This document shows positions 2,563 through 17,252 of a DNA stretch of 20,939 bases, piece after piece (position 1 is the stretch's first letter; every line of letters starts with the position of its first letter). The position numbers and the translations under genes are program-made. The DNA is from a virus, in the IMG/VR virus record IMGVR_UViG_3300008105_000029, positions 1-20,939 of that record, one strand, 5' to 3'. Below the pieces are notes generated by a model that searched no databases, was not told the DNA's origin, and saw only the letters and a program-made list of their open reading frames with translations.

Positions 2563-3224
2563 TGGAATTCGATAAAATCTTAGATAAAATTCTTGCACGC
2601 TTAAACGAGTACCAAGTTAAAGGCTCGTTTAAATTTGATATTGACAACCTCGACAATATAGACAAGGTTAACGAAGTTATCGAAGAAGTCCTAAAAGAAG
2701 AGGGCTATTATGATAAAATTAAGGACTATAAGCAAGTATTTGATGATAATTTAAAAGATGTAATCAATGAATATAAGTCATTCGGAAATATAAACACAAA
2801 GGATTTAAAGGCATTTAATAACGATATACTGACCACTAAAAAAATAGAGGGGAATATAGATATAGTAGCTAGGGAGTATGCAACACAATACAAACGAGCG
2901 CAAGGACAAATACTAGCCAATAAATTCAATGTACAATATTTTAAGTATTCGGGAACTGAATTAAAAAAAGTAGATAGTCAAGGGGAAACAACTATAACAA
3001 CTAGGTGCTTTTGTCGGCAAAGGATAGGGAACTTTTATACAAAAGAAGAGATAGAATCTTGGGCAGACCTAGAATGGGACGGTAAAATAAAAGGAACTAG
3101 CAGAGTAAATATTTTTCAAGTAGCGGGCGGATGGAATTGCAGGCATACCATAAGACCTGTAAGTGAAAAAATGGCATTGGCTTATGGACTAAATAAATAT
3201 AATGATGTTGACTGTGAATTATAA
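2562..3224 (+). CDS. Minor head protein (SPP1 gp7 / Mu gpF type)
   Basis: 220 residues. The C-terminal domain carries the signature of phage head-morphogenesis proteins: a TTRCFCRQRIGNFYT segment at residues 146-160 and GGWNCRHTIRP at 189-199, with conserved Cys and His that probably bind metal. The N-terminal 110 residues are charged and helical. These proteins are present in few copies inside the capsid and sit next to the portal gene in most phages. The start overlaps the portal stop (TAATG), so the two are translationally coupled. Confident at family level. Confidence 0.85.
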   Translation: MEFDKILDKILARLNEYQVKGSFKFDIDNLDNIDKVNEVIEEVLKEEGYYDKIKDYKQVFDDNLKDVINEYKSFGNINTKDLKAFNNDILTTKKIEGNIDIVAREYATQYKRAQGQILANKFNVQYFKYSGTELKKVDSQGETTITTRCFCRQRIGNFYTKEEIESWADLEWDGKIKGTSRVNIFQVAGGWNCRHTIRPVSEKMALAYGLNKYNDVDCEL

Positions 3225-3232
3225 AAAATAAA

Positions 3233-3262
3233 TTTGCATTTTTAAAATAATGCTTATATTTG
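3233..3262 (+). promoter_or_regulatory. Promoter before the scaffold/capsid block
   Basis: TTTG at 3233-3236 and TATATTTG at 3255-3262 with 18 bases between match the Bacteroidota -33/-7 arrangement. Transcription would begin near 3269, just before the gene at 3276. Confidence 0.65.
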
Positions 3263-4572: not shown

Positions 4573-5718
4573 ATGCCATTTGTACCAAAAATTTTACAAG
4601 AAAGATTAGACACGGTTTTTCAAACCAATAGTCAAATCGAAAACACCCAAAAGAATACACCGTTATCTAATATGCTAAGAGACGAGGCTAACTCTAGTTC
4701 GCTTCAATCTATGTTAGTAAATGAAAATGGGCAGCAATTAGACCTTAGATTAATATGGAGTTTGCCTGAGTGCGGGGCTGTAGCTTCGGGTTGCGTTACT
4801 GACCCTTGCGCTGATGGTGCTGCGCCGACTACACAGCAATCTCAATCATATTCTTTGCAATGTTCTAGTTCAAACACTTTCCATAAATCTTTAACGTTTA
4901 CTTATGCTGACTTTGAAAAAGCCTCTGCTCTTATGGACACTTTGCCAGATTTGTCAGCTCCACTTAGAGATACGTCTGTAAATGGAACGTCTATTGAAAT
5001 GAAACTTTTAGGGCTTATTTCAGACGTTGATTTAGCTGCTGAAACCGCATTAGCTAAAAAAATGATTGCAGGTGTTGCGGCTACAACTTACGGATTCTCC
5101 CCTGACGAAGTACCTACAATTGCAAACTTAGTAACTAATGAAGGTAAAGCAGTTACAACTTATGGAACTGGACTTACTGCTATTCAAAATGAGTTATTCA
5201 GTGGTGTGACAATGTCGGCAGAAATAGCTGAATTTAAAAACCAGCCTTGGTTAATTGGTGGTTATCCATTAACTAACTATGTAAAACTAAGCGGTGGTTT
5301 GTGTTGCGCTTCAACAGGAGTTAATCTAACCGGATTAATGGAAATTAATCAAACACCTGTAATGAACTCCAAAGCATTAATAAAAGCGTTTATAGCTGAG
5401 TATCCTAGTTTAGCTGGAAACTTCGTTACAATGCCATTCTTCTTATCTTATGATAGAGGTTCAATCCAATTGTTGAACTACTATACATTCGCTGGAGGCT
5501 TTGGACTTCAAAACGGATTAACAGTTAAAAAACAAATTTTCTCACCATTTACAAACAGACCAATGGGATTAACCATTAAAATGAGTGAGTGTGGTGAAAA
5601 GATTACAGTAAGAGTTCAAACAACAGAAGATATTGTTTTCAAACCTGAAACACAATGTTCTGGAACTTCTGCTTTTGGAGTTAATGGATTACAACAATTT
5701 GTAATTAAAAACTCATAA
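4573..5718 (+). CDS. Major capsid protein candidate
   Basis: 381 residues, immediately after the scaffold candidate and before the neck genes. Size and position fit an HK97-fold shell protein. The N-terminal 35 residues (MPFVPKILQERLDTVFQ...) resemble the N-arm of capsid proteins of Bacteroidota phages. The chain is Cys-rich for a capsid (a cluster C67, C74, C79, a CC pair near 243, and C355), which may reflect disulphide or metal cross-links; that is inference. The ATG at 4573 is preceded by a structured leader. The stop overlaps the next start as TAATG. Confidence 0.8.
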   Translation: MPFVPKILQERLDTVFQTNSQIENTQKNTPLSNMLRDEANSSSLQSMLVNENGQQLDLRLIWSLPECGAVASGCVTDPCADGAAPTTQQSQSYSLQCSSSNTFHKSLTFTYADFEKASALMDTLPDLSAPLRDTSVNGTSIEMKLLGLISDVDLAAETALAKKMIAGVAATTYGFSPDEVPTIANLVTNEGKAVTTYGTGLTAIQNELFSGVTMSAEIAEFKNQPWLIGGYPLTNYVKLSGGLCCASTGVNLTGLMEINQTPVMNSKALIKAFIAEYPSLAGNFVTMPFFLSYDRGSIQLLNYYTFAGGFGLQNGLTVKKQIFSPFTNRPMGLTIKMSECGEKITVRVQTTEDIVFKPETQCSGTSAFGVNGLQQFVIKNS

Positions 5719-11091: not shown

Positions 11092-11260
11092 AAGCACTCC
11101 GATTAAGGAAATAAATAAAAAGATTGCTTTAATAGAGAAAACGTCTTTACCTAGTGTATTTTTAAAAGACGTAATTGAGTCTAAAAAACAGGATAAGGAT
11201 TCAAAGGTAGCTGCAATTAATAGGCTAATTCGAAACAAACAATACAAACAAAAGCCATGA
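11072..11260 (+). CDS. Small basic protein before endolysin
   Basis: 62 residues, Lys-rich (about one in four), predicted helical, overlapping both neighbours (20 bases upstream, ATGA downstream). No signal or membrane segment. Coupling to the endolysin suggests a lysis accessory or simply a translational bridge. Unknown family. Confidence 0.6.
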   Translation: MAVYVNKSTPIKEINKKIALIEKTSLPSVFLKDVIESKKQDKDSKVAAINRLIRNKQYKQKP

Positions 11261-11847
11261 ATATATCTAAACTCCCAGACTTCATAAAAAATGACATTGA
11301 TTTACTAGCTAAATTCGGTATTGATACGCATTTAGAATTAGCGCATTTCCTTAGCCAATTTCACCACGAGAGTGCAGGGTTTACGGCAAAAGTAGAAAAT
11401 CTCAATTATTCAGATACAGGATTGCTTAAAACTTTTCCTAAGTATTTCAATGTGAACACCGCAAAACAACACGCAAGGAAACCGCAAGCGATAGCCAATA
11501 GAGTTTACGCTGGGAGAATGGGGAACGATTTACTAGGCGATGGTTGGAAGTATAGAGGTCGTGGATATATCCAATTGACAGGAAAGAACAACTATTCGGC
11601 TTTAAACTCATATCTTAAAACTATTGGACTTGCAGACAATGTTTTGGAGTCTCCAGACCTAGTAGAAACTAAATACCCATTATTATCTGCTGCTTATTGG
11701 TGGATGATTAACGGATTGAATCAAATTGCAGACAATGGGAGTGGAGATGACGTTGTAAAAGCGGTCACAAAGCGAGTAAACGGAGGGTTAAATGGATATG
11801 CTCACAGATTAGAAATGTTTAAATACTACTTTAATTTACTGAAATGA
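11257..11847 (+). CDS. GH19 endolysin (chitinase-like muramidase)
   Basis: 196 residues forming a single glycoside hydrolase family 19 domain. The catalytic motif is AHFLSQFHHESAGF, with E38 as the general acid, followed by KVENLNY (E47). The substrate-cleft segment GDGWKYRGRGYIQLTGKNNY spans 94-113. Phage GH19 enzymes cut peptidoglycan glycan strands. No signal peptide or cell-wall binding domain is present, so export depends on the holin. Full length for a minimal phage GH19 enzyme. Overlaps both neighbours. Confidence 0.93.
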   Translation: MNISKLPDFIKNDIDLLAKFGIDTHLELAHFLSQFHHESAGFTAKVENLNYSDTGLLKTFPKYFNVNTAKQHARKPQAIANRVYAGRMGNDLLGDGWKYRGRGYIQLTGKNNYSALNSYLKTIGLADNVLESPDLVETKYPLLSAAYWWMINGLNQIADNGSGDDVVKAVTKRVNGGLNGYAHRLEMFKYYFNLLK

Positions 11848-12483: not shown

Positions 12484-12489
12484 AAAAAC

Positions 12490-12519
12490 TTGACATTTAG
12501 TAAATAGTTTGTATATTTG
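12490..12519 (+). promoter_or_regulatory. Promoter of small RNA 1
   Basis: TTG at 12490-12492 and TATATTTG at 12512-12519 with 19 bases between fit a Bacteroidota promoter. No protein gene follows for 470 bases; the transcript enters structured non-coding sequence. Confidence 0.65.
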
Positions 12520-12525
12520 CAACGT

Positions 12526-12630
12526 AAACGACTTTGGGAGAGGTCAGTTTGTAAAGATATAAAAGCCTGTATTCAGGTGAAATTGCCTTAGACTAGACCT
12601 CTCCAATATTAGTTTAAGGCTTTTTTATTT
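12526..12630 (+). ncRNA. Small RNA 1 with own promoter, terminator and pseudoknot potential
   Basis: About 100 bases between a good promoter and an intrinsic terminator, with no ORF. Bases 12534-12545 (GGAGAGGTC core at 12537) pair perfectly with 12596-12604 for nine base pairs, extended by two more past a bulged G. That partner lies in the loop of the terminator hairpin, giving an H-type pseudoknot or two mutually exclusive folds. A small hairpin CCTG-TATT-CAGG (12566-12577) lies between. Either a discrete phage small RNA or an attenuator. Not recognised as a known family. Confidence 0.6.
12585..12630 (+). terminator. Intrinsic terminator of small RNA 1
   Basis: GCCTTAGACTA (12585-12595) pairs with TAGTTTAAGGC (12610-12620) at all 11 positions (one G-U), followed by TTTTTTATTTT. 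This is the cleanest intrinsic terminator in the window. Its 14-base loop contains the pseudoknot partner of 12537-12545. Confidence 0.8.
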
Positions 12631-12631
12631 T

Positions 12632-12952
12632 ATATCAGTATGGTTGTATAGTCGAACCAATCAAAATTAGACTTAAATAGCTGAGTAAATTAAAATAAAT
12701 AGTAATCTCAAACGCAGAAAAAAATAGTTAGCTCTGTATTCCTAGACAACTAACGACTTGGAACCGAAAGGACAAATTCTGTGAACGAAAATTGTACTAA
12801 TAGACCTAAAGTACAAACCTATATGGTAAGGAGGCGGGAGTGTTGTTATTGCTAGAAGTTTTGCCAACTTTATAAACCTAATTGAATCAATCCTATTGCT
12901 AGGTAAGTTCCAAGGAGGTAATAGGATAGGTATGCAAAGAATAAAAAAATAA
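12632..12952 (+). ncRNA. Second structured non-coding block
   Basis: No ORF of useful length on either strand. Visible pairings: TGGTT/AACCA (12641-12659), GTTAG/CTAAC (12727-12754), TTGTACT/AGTACAA with an 11-base loop (12792-12816), AAGTT/AACTT (12856-12870), ATCCTATT/AATAGGAT (12890-12897 with 12920-12927), and a long-range CTTGGAAC/GTTCCAAG (12757-12764 with 12907-12914). The last helix uses the loop of the preceding one, again a pseudoknot. Two AAGGAGG sequences (12828 and 12913) are unusual for a phylum that seldom uses Shine-Dalgarno pairing. It may be a large structured RNA or an elaborate leader. Family unknown. Confidence 0.45.
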
Positions 12953-12969
12953 TTAAAAAAGAATAATAG

Positions 12970-12977
12970 TATATTTG
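12970..12977 (+). promoter_or_regulatory. -7 box before the spanin-like gene
   Basis: TATATTTG lies 15 bases before the ATG at 12993. It also contains a TTG in frame with the gene, which is why a longer reading frame appears to start inside the promoter. A clear -33 box is not visible. Confidence 0.5.
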
Positions 12978-12992
12978 CCTAAATTAAAAAAT

Positions 12993-13487
12993 ATGAAATG
13001 GTACGTTGGTCTTATAATATTAGTTTTCCTTTTAATAGCATTCCTGTTATGGCAAAATTGGACAAAAAACCAATTGATTCAAGACCTACAGATAACAAAC
13101 CAAAGGAAAGTAGTTGATACTTTGGAAGTAGAAGTTGAAAAAAAAGTGACTGAGTGGAAAACTAAAAAGGTCATAGCCGAAAAGATAGTAGATAAATGGC
13201 ACAATGTCCACGACACAATAATTCAACGAGATACGCTGCTAGTAGAATGTCAAAAGGATATATTTTCGCTTGATACAGCGCTTTATTCCTGTGAACTTGC
13301 ACTAACTTCCTGTTTAAATTTAAAGACCGCACAAAGCAATCTAGTAAAGAATTTAGAGAATAGAAAAACTCCTTTGATAGTCCCATACGTTGGGGTCGGC
13401 TTATCAATGGATAGGAGTTATTTAGTAAGTCCAAGCGTTCAATGTGGTGTCGGTCTCAACCTAAATAAGATATTAGGCAAAAAATAA
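12993..13487 (+). CDS. Rz-like spanin candidate
   Basis: 164 residues starting MKWYVGLIILVFLLIAFLLW, one N-terminal membrane anchor, then a long charged helical/coiled-coil region (residues 22-115) with periplasmic-type cysteines. The C-terminus is a beta-type glycine-rich segment (VGVGLSMDRSYLVSPSVQCGVGLNL) like a membrane- or barrel-interacting hairpin. An anchored coiled coil near an endolysin suggests an inner-membrane spanin bridging to the outer membrane during lysis. The ATG is chosen over the in-frame TTG at 12975, which is part of the promoter box. Confidence 0.7.
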   Translation: MKWYVGLIILVFLLIAFLLWQNWTKNQLIQDLQITNQRKVVDTLEVEVEKKVTEWKTKKVIAEKIVDKWHNVHDTIIQRDTLLVECQKDIFSLDTALYSCELALTSCLNLKTAQSNLVKNLENRKTPLIVPYVGVGLSMDRSYLVSPSVQCGVGLNLNKILGKK

Positions 13488-14192: not shown

Positions 14193-15131
14193 ATGAAAAT
14201 AGCCTTAATAGAAAATAGTTCAATAGGAGTCAATATTCACAGGCTTTTAACGCCATATAAACATTTAGCAAAAGACCACGAGGTTATAATGACAAACGGA
14301 GTTGTAACGACAGATTATGACGTTGTAGTGTTTAACCGTTTACCTAATCAATGTTTAACCGACATTGAAAAACTGAAAGCCAAAGGAGTTAAAATAGTAG
14401 TTGACTTGGATGATTGGATAGAGCTTCCTAAATATCACTGGTTACATTCTAAAAACAAGATTAAGCAGATAGCACCAATATTAGATTCTTTAAACCTTGC
14501 GGACGTTATTACAACCTCAACTTATACGCTGCAAAAAGAACTAAAAAAGCTAGGGTATAACAGTGAAGTTTTGCCTAATTTTATAGAACACAACGTAAAG
14601 AACGAACCAAAAGAACACGCCATAGGCTGGGTCGGCGGTGCTGGACACGTCAATAATCTATTCACAATGGCAAAACCTATGCAAGCTGACTATAAATGTA
14701 AACGGATTTTAGGAGGTTATACAAAAGGCGAGATTCAAAGTGAGTGGTACGCTAAAATAATGTCGGCAAATAGTAAGTTTGATTTACAAGTTAGAAAACC
14801 TACAGGAAGTAATTATATGGAGCTATACAAAGATATAACCATTGGACTTCTACCTAGTTTTAATGATACTTTCACGCTATGCAAAAGCGATTTGAGAGCC
14901 TTAGAGTATGCTAGTATGGGTATTGTAGGCGTTACCAACGGAGGTTGCTATGAAAAAACCAAAGCAATAAAAGTAACTGATAAAACTTTTGAAAAAGCCG
15001 TAAAAAGGTTAATTAACTTTGGCGATTACTATTCAGATATGCAGGAAGCACAGATAGAATGGCTTATCGAACGAAACGATATTAAAAAAATAACTCAAAA
15101 GAGATTGCAAATAATAGATAGTTTAAAATAA
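14193..15131 (+). CDS. GT-B glycosyltransferase (family 4-like)
   Basis: 312 residues. Two Rossmann-like halves are visible. The N-terminal half has VVDLDDWIELPKYH (69-82) and ADVITTSTYTLQKELKKLG (103-121). The C-terminal half opens with LPNFIE (127-132) and AIGWVGGAGHVNN (143-155), and carries SDLRALEYASMGIVGVTNG, the nucleotide-sugar binding E-x7-type region of GT4 enzymes. It transfers a sugar from a nucleotide donor. In a phage it may modify host surface glycans, DNA or the virion. Two further glycosyltransferase-like genes lie nearby. Confidence 0.85.
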   Translation: MKIALIENSSIGVNIHRLLTPYKHLAKDHEVIMTNGVVTTDYDVVVFNRLPNQCLTDIEKLKAKGVKIVVDLDDWIELPKYHWLHSKNKIKQIAPILDSLNLADVITTSTYTLQKELKKLGYNSEVLPNFIEHNVKNEPKEHAIGWVGGAGHVNNLFTMAKPMQADYKCKRILGGYTKGEIQSEWYAKIMSANSKFDLQVRKPTGSNYMELYKDITIGLLPSFNDTFTLCKSDLRALEYASMGIVGVTNGGCYEKTKAIKVTDKTFEKAVKRLINFGDYYSDMQEAQIEWLIERNDIKKITQKRLQIIDSLK

Positions 15132-16547: not shown

Positions 16548-17252
16548 ATGATAGGACTTGTTTGCATAGCAAAAGACGAAAACCAATACTTTGAAGAATG
16601 GATAAGACACCATTTGAAAGTAGGGTTTGACTATGTTTTTATTTATGATAATAACTCAAAAGAACCTATTGAAATACCATTTAATTTATTTCATAAAGTA
16701 ACTATTATAAAATGGAATGATTCTGAATTTGGAAGCCAGTCAAGAGCTTATATGGACGCTTGTATTAAATGTAAAGATTGGAGCTACTTAGCATTCTTAG
16801 ACGTTGACGAGTTTTATATTTCAACTACAATGAATGTGAAATTAGATTTAAAAAGTTTAAATTATCCAATTGCACTAGGTATTTATTGGAGAATATACGG
16901 AAATCCTAAACCATTTGAAACTAGACAACCTATAGAAAACTACATCCATTGGCACGGTGACAAACATATAAAATCAATAATACAACCTACTTTTGTCAAA
17001 TCATTTCCAGACCCTCACAAAGCGGAACTAATTAACGAAAAAAAAGGAATGTATATTGACGAAAATAATAATCAAATACTAAACCCTACAGGCGTTCACA
17101 CTTCTAAAAACATTTGGATTAAGCACGTATTCACTCGCAGCCGTCAAGAATTTGCAGAAAAAATGGAACGTGGTGACGCTAATACTCGAGAAAAAAACCG
17201 AACTTGGGAAGACTTCGAGCATTATAATTCTCTTTGTATTAATTTAGATTGA
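16548..17252 (+). CDS. GT-A glycosyltransferase (family 2/92-like)
   Basis: 234 residues. IAKDENQYFEEWIRHHLKVG (7-26) and FIYDNNS (31-37) are the start of this enzyme type, and LAFLDVDEFY (81-90) contains the DxD metal/nucleotide-sugar site. A later HTSKNIWIKHVFTRSRQEFAEKM segment is also characteristic. It transfers sugars to a glycan acceptor. It begins just after the truncated attC-2; the 45 bases between hold only A/T-rich leader sequence. Confidence 0.85.
   Translation: MIGLVCIAKDENQYFEEWIRHHLKVGFDYVFIYDNNSKEPIEIPFNLFHKVTIIKWNDSEFGSQSRAYMDACIKCKDWSYLAFLDVDEFYISTTMNVKLDLKSLNYPIALGIYWRIYGNPKPFETRQPIENYIHWHGDKHIKSIIQPTFVKSFPDPHKAELINEKKGMYIDENNNQILNPTGVHTSKNIWIKHVFTRSRQEFAEKMERGDANTREKNRTWEDFEHYNSLCINLD

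Follow-up and report, generated by a model that had tools for sequence, protein, structure and literature searches.

The crcB and pfl motifs, those of the fluoride and ZTP riboswitches, overlap terminators (PMC2864571), and the phage-encoded regulatory RNAs described to date include the c4 RNA of P1/P7, DicF and STnc6030 (review PMC12197685). The type III antitoxin RNAs ToxI and CptI have been described as small RNA pseudoknots (PMC5772629, PMC4627078). The phage locus described here resembles the crcB and pfl riboswitches in that a conserved RNA pairs in or beside a terminator hairpin, but it is a phage small RNA (sRNA) without an Rfam match, no coding gene follows it directly, and the partner of its terminator loop stays clear of the terminator stem. 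Like c4 RNA, DicF and STnc6030 it is a phage-encoded non-coding RNA with a structure of its own; whereas those RNAs pair with known phage or host targets, no target common to the homologues and no match to the Rfam c4 model were found here. In contrast to ToxI and CptI, the phage sRNA contains no repeats, so that the type III arrangement of repeated pseudoknots followed by a ToxN/AbiQ-like gene was not found, and none of the nine neighbouring proteins belongs to a PADLOC toxin or defence family. 6S-Flavo (RF01685, about 108 positions) is likewise a small rod-like RNA of the presumed host group, although its model matches neither of the two phages that carry the sRNA. No precedent for a terminator-loop pseudoknot in an sRNA was found in the open-access literature.

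The window, that is, the whole stretch of DNA that was analysed, is a virus record of 20,939 bases with genes running mostly rightward. Many of these genes are preceded by a TAnnTTTG element, the -7 consensus of sigma-A in Flavobacterium (PMC9723704); a bacterium of the Bacteroidota is therefore the most likely host. The large proteins encoded at 715–2562 and 4573–5718, at portal/capsid positions, matched no annotated phage and no Pfam or PHROGs family; the phage represents an undescribed lineage. Elsewhere in the window, 16548–17252 encodes a glycosyltransferase family 2/92-like protein, and the product of 14193–15131 shares about 27% identity with glycosyltransferase-like proteins from large enterobacterial phages. 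The sRNA locus lies between small genes that come after a GH19-type endolysin gene (11257–11847) and a gene at about 12990, the product of which had been labelled spanin-like and matched no Pfam or PHROGs family. As judged by eye, in the related phage contigs L003, L004, L005 and L086 the endolysin region is separated from the spanin-like gene by a ParB-like gene, joined in L004 and L005 by a DNA methyltransferase-like gene; both genes are absent from the window.

At this locus about 100 non-coding bases are bracketed by a strong Bacteroidota-type promoter and an intrinsic terminator (Table 1). The promoter reads TTGACA-N16-TATATT over 12490–12517, matching 11 of the 12 positions of the sigma-70 pattern, and over 12490–12519 it also fits the Bacteroidota form TTG-N19-TAnnTTTG (here TTG-N19-TATATTTG), with the position of the -7 element placing the likely sRNA start at about 12523–12526. 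BLAST of the promoter against host genomes returned, among other matches, TATATTTGC promoter-like sequences, one of which is directly upstream of an apparent tRNA gene. No ATG-started reading frame of at least 12 codons is present within 12490–12975, and on sequence signals the locus has the attributes of an sRNA gene, with its own promoter, an intrinsic terminator and no reading frame. The terminator stem pairs GCCTTAGACTA with TAGTTTAAGGC and is followed by TTTTTTATTTT. The initial annotation had described a promoter and a perfect 11-base-pair terminator framing about 100 non-coding bases; both signals and the lack of a reading frame stand, whereas the stem is perfect only if the one G.U among its 11 pairs is counted.

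Table 1. Features of the sRNA locus and the adjoining block, in window coordinates.
Feature	Position	Strand	Remarks
Bacteroidota housekeeping-type promoter	12490–12519	+	TTG(ACA) -33 element, 19-nt spacer, TATATTTG -7 element
P0 5' strand, UAAAC	12525–12529	+	Optional pairing with 12612–12616 would open the terminator; nested MFE in both phages
Conserved 5' block, GACUUYGGGAGNGGUCAGU	12530–12548	+	Includes P1 5' strand; transient 5' hairpin GACU/GGUC possible
P1 5' strand, GGAGAGGUC	12537–12545	+	Complementary to terminator loop; C-G in L086 in place of A12541-U12600
P2 small internal hairpin, GCCUG-UAUU-CAGGU	12565–12578	+	UGAGA-UUUAU-UCUCA in L086: letters differ, hairpin kept
P3 terminator stem, 5' strand	12585–12595	+	
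P1 3' strand, GACCUCUCC	12596–12604	+	Within terminator loop
Pseudoknot loop L3, AAUAU	12605–12609	+	AAUUUC in L086; 4.9 nt estimated need to span 9-bp helix
P3 terminator stem, 3' strand (12610–12620), and U-tract	12610–12630	+	
Reading-frame-free block travelling with the sRNA	12618–12938	+	About 98% identical to L086 over 12618–12891

The terminator loop begins with GACCTCTCC, all nine bases of which form Watson-Crick pairs with GGAGAGGTC near the 5' end of the RNA, exactly as the initial annotation had proposed. In shuffles of this RNA's own loop and upstream sequence a 9-nt match of this kind had a probability of P = 0.0026. The arrangement was also described as a terminator whose loop of 10–22 nt has at least 8 nt complementary to upstream sequence; with both strands counted, this descriptor matched only the window RNA and its homologue in contig L086 in 1.35 Mb of phage sequence, against one match in 4.06 Mb of dinucleotide shuffles. 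The predicted fold of the window RNA was more stable than that of all 200 dinucleotide shuffles (z = -3.93), and the L086 RNA likewise exceeded all 200 of its shuffles (z = -3.73).

The homologue lies on the minus strand of L086 (13,731 bases, from the same place as contig L006) at about 13032–13155, right after an endolysin gene and in a gene context that differs from that in the window. The promoter is retained in both phages, and the two loci have in common TATATTTGCA, GACTTYGGGAG, GGTCAGT, AAAGATAT, GACC-CTCCAAT and the U-tract; they differ in the start-proximal part of the leader, in P2 and in both strands of the terminator. Each strand of P1 carries a single change in L086 and the two fall at partnered positions, turning A12541-U12600 into C-G. 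The L086 terminator stem, CCCAAGC/GCTTGGG, is rewritten and still perfect, with six of the seven stem pairs from the loop changed on both sides as read by eye, and a stem of such quality had a chance of 0.002 in shuffles. Compensatory changes in related phages, which had been proposed as a check on the structure, are therefore seen in both helices (one pair in P1, six of seven in P3) of the sole homologue found, giving a comparison of n = 2. As far as these two sequences go, the predicted helices P1, P2 and P3 are all retained with changed letters in the second phage. Since L086 keeps the knot although most letters of its stop hairpin have changed, the shape has probably been selected. The small RNA gene is real and probably functional, as the compensatory changes in its one homologue suggest.

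In both phages the loop strand of P1 lies entirely inside the terminator loop, leaving 0 or 1 nt in loop L2 and 5 or 6 nt in L3. On an A-form model the crossing of a 9-bp helix was estimated to take about 4.9 nt, so that L3 is long enough for P1 and P3 to stack and coexist, and by this estimate the two interleaved helices are compatible in length and loops with an H-type pseudoknot. A classical antiterminator would overlap the terminator stem. P1 need not oppose termination, because it never overlaps that stem in either phage. The discrete small RNA with a pseudoknot between a 5' segment and the terminator loop that the initial annotation had put forward is thus supported by the compensatory change and the rewritten stem in L086.

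We consider it an even bet that 12490–12630 is a free-standing gene of the phage, encoding an sRNA that has a pseudoknotted terminator and acts in trans. Host RNA polymerase would start at the strong host-like promoter and make an RNA of about 100 nt ending at its own intrinsic terminator, where pairing of the 5' segment with the terminator loop (P1) would combine with P3 into one H-type pseudoknot, the small hairpin P2 being accommodated within the long loop. Such a knot would close both ends of the RNA and leave the conserved single strands GACUUYG, AGU and AAAGAUAU exposed, and through these the RNA would probably bind a protein or another RNA in trans. We infer transcription, knot formation, action in trans and any target from these features, the action in trans by elimination only. 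Among antisense targets within the same phage, no site pairs with both homologues, and this candidate mode of action was rejected.

Searches for further relatives returned little beyond the phages already named. DNA patterns for the 5' block, alone or with the promoter, and for the downstream block, run over the viral contigs, identified only L086 and L003; three other pattern matches were unrelated, GC-rich and without a terminator. The single pattern match in the genome collection lies inside a chromosomal hydrolase-like gene and was dismissed as chance, and a covariance model gave no match in 397 genomes of the family in which it occurred. In 85 phage records the same model matched L086 only, which served as positive control. 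BLAST of phages and plasmids found nothing beyond a 25-nt AT-rich match, and searches at class and phylum level gave only short promoter-like or AT-rich matches. No family of Rfam 15 reached its gathering score, and permissive Rfam searches gave two matches in the window, both rejected as chance, and none in L086. By Rfam standards the sRNA is a new family, and it represents a variant among the types of structured phage sRNA already described.

The sRNA is followed by a second conserved element. From the U-tract to about 12890 the window and L086 differ at five positions in approximately 274, in contrast to the neighbouring genes, which are only 76–81% identical as against about 98% for this block; contig L003 starts within the block and is 96% identical there. 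Both the sRNA and the block are absent from L002, L004 and L091, although the genes of these contigs are related. In L086 the two elements have the endolysin gene on one side and a DUF3310 gene on the other (about 12640–13170), in L002 the endolysin gene directly abuts a gene resembling the DUF3310 gene of L086 (about 3150–3250), and in the window they follow three further small genes and precede the 12990 gene. From the joint presence or absence and these contexts we infer that the sRNA and the block form a cassette of about 440 bp that is transferred or lost as one unit. The initial annotation had spoken of a next structured block; this non-coding stretch is indeed conserved, but its folding energy does not stand out from that of shuffles (z = -0.33 to -1.06). 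As a structured RNA it was rejected on this energy and on a consensus fold without covariation, of which none is possible in near-identical sequences. The block can fold with long-range helices CUUGGAAC (12757–12764) / GUUCCAAG (12906–12913) and UGUAU.CCUA / UAGG.AUGCA, no more stably than shuffles. By eye, CCTATTGCTAGG at 12892–12903 of the window and in L003 corresponds to CTTGTTACAAGG on the minus strand of L086, the four changes keeping a small hairpin in shifted register. That the sRNA helices have changed and the block barely so may reflect exchange in the recent past, a block under strong constraint or diversification of the sRNA. A more far-reaching reading, which we hold to be rather improbable, is that of a portable phage RNA cassette in which a fast-changing pseudoknotted sRNA, its terminator being half of the fold, accompanies an almost frozen non-coding partner of about 270 nt, and in which an arms race with host defence or a competing phage would drive change in the helices but leave the architecture intact.

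The main rival to a trans-acting sRNA is a conditional terminator, in which P1 extended by P0 would make a rod, the terminator could not form and polymerase would read into the block; in the other state the early 5' hairpin GACU/GGUC, or a ligand on the conserved 5' block, would occupy the 5' segment and the terminator would form. Nested folding, which cannot show pseudoknots, predicts this rod for both RNAs, with the terminator stem entirely unpaired and energies of -31.9 and -30.3 kcal/mol in the window and L086, respectively. For the knot, P1 plus P2 contribute -20.0 or -22.7 and the P3 helix -13.9 or -11.0 kcal/mol, and with an assumed knot cost of 7–9 kcal/mol the rough total of about -25 to -27 kcal/mol is some 5 kcal/mol poorer than the nested rod, so that the rod could win at equilibrium. 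Folds of growing prefixes, in which the 5' hairpin appears first, then P1 and then P0, also fit a conditional terminator, as do the co-inheritance of the block with the sRNA and the failure to find a convincing promoter for the block itself. However, a nested model by its nature leaves no room for the pseudoknot, the P0 pairing is within chance (P = 0.29–0.30 in the window and 0.09–0.29 in L086), and P1 leaves the terminator stem free in both phages, unlike a classical antiterminator. Readthrough would moreover switch on non-coding sequence, and the gene at about 12990 is preceded by a TAnnTTTG element of its own (12970). As the two helices are compatible, P1 need not act as the switch that the initial annotation had suggested for readthrough into the block and on to the spanin-like gene; a conditional terminator may nonetheless apply, and we regard it as less likely than the trans-acting sRNA but as the most credible of the alternatives.

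The same rod, whose internal loop measures 7x7 or 5x4 in the nested MFE structures of the two phages and whose length is near the 108 positions of 6S-Flavo, could instead mimic an open promoter and bind host RNA polymerase as a 6S-like RNA built of P0, P1, P2 and a central bubble, the terminator only making the 3' end. RF01685, considered because of the rod fold, scored above cut-off in five of five host genomes searched but in neither phage (G000 and G006); Rfam gave no match worth naming, and the closing helix is the same P0 that falls within chance, which makes a 6S-like role quite improbable. Pairing of the two complementary segments (a and a') between two RNA molecules, as a dimer or with a partner in trans, would explain their co-change equally well, and sRNA loops often are contact sites; the partner is nevertheless only about 50 nt away in the same RNA and both phages have loop lengths that suit a knot, and we rate such pairing no higher than a 6S-like role. 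Marginally less probable still is an ordinary promoter and terminator with a coincidental loop complementarity that the homologue merely inherited. Just two sequences are known, which leaves room for coincidence, but the chance of the match in the window is 0.003, and the paired change from A-U to C-G and the new but perfect stem around the same loop contradict simple inheritance.

If confirmed, the sRNA would represent a new small RNA family of Bacteroidota phages, a group whose phage RNA biology has barely been explored, and would offer a clear natural example of an intrinsic terminator doubling as one helix of a pseudoknot. With this system one can ask directly whether termination is promoted, hindered or left unaffected by a helix threading the terminator loop. 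That a variable RNA accompanies a nearly invariant non-coding block, in a cassette present in only some related phages, suggests an accessory function.
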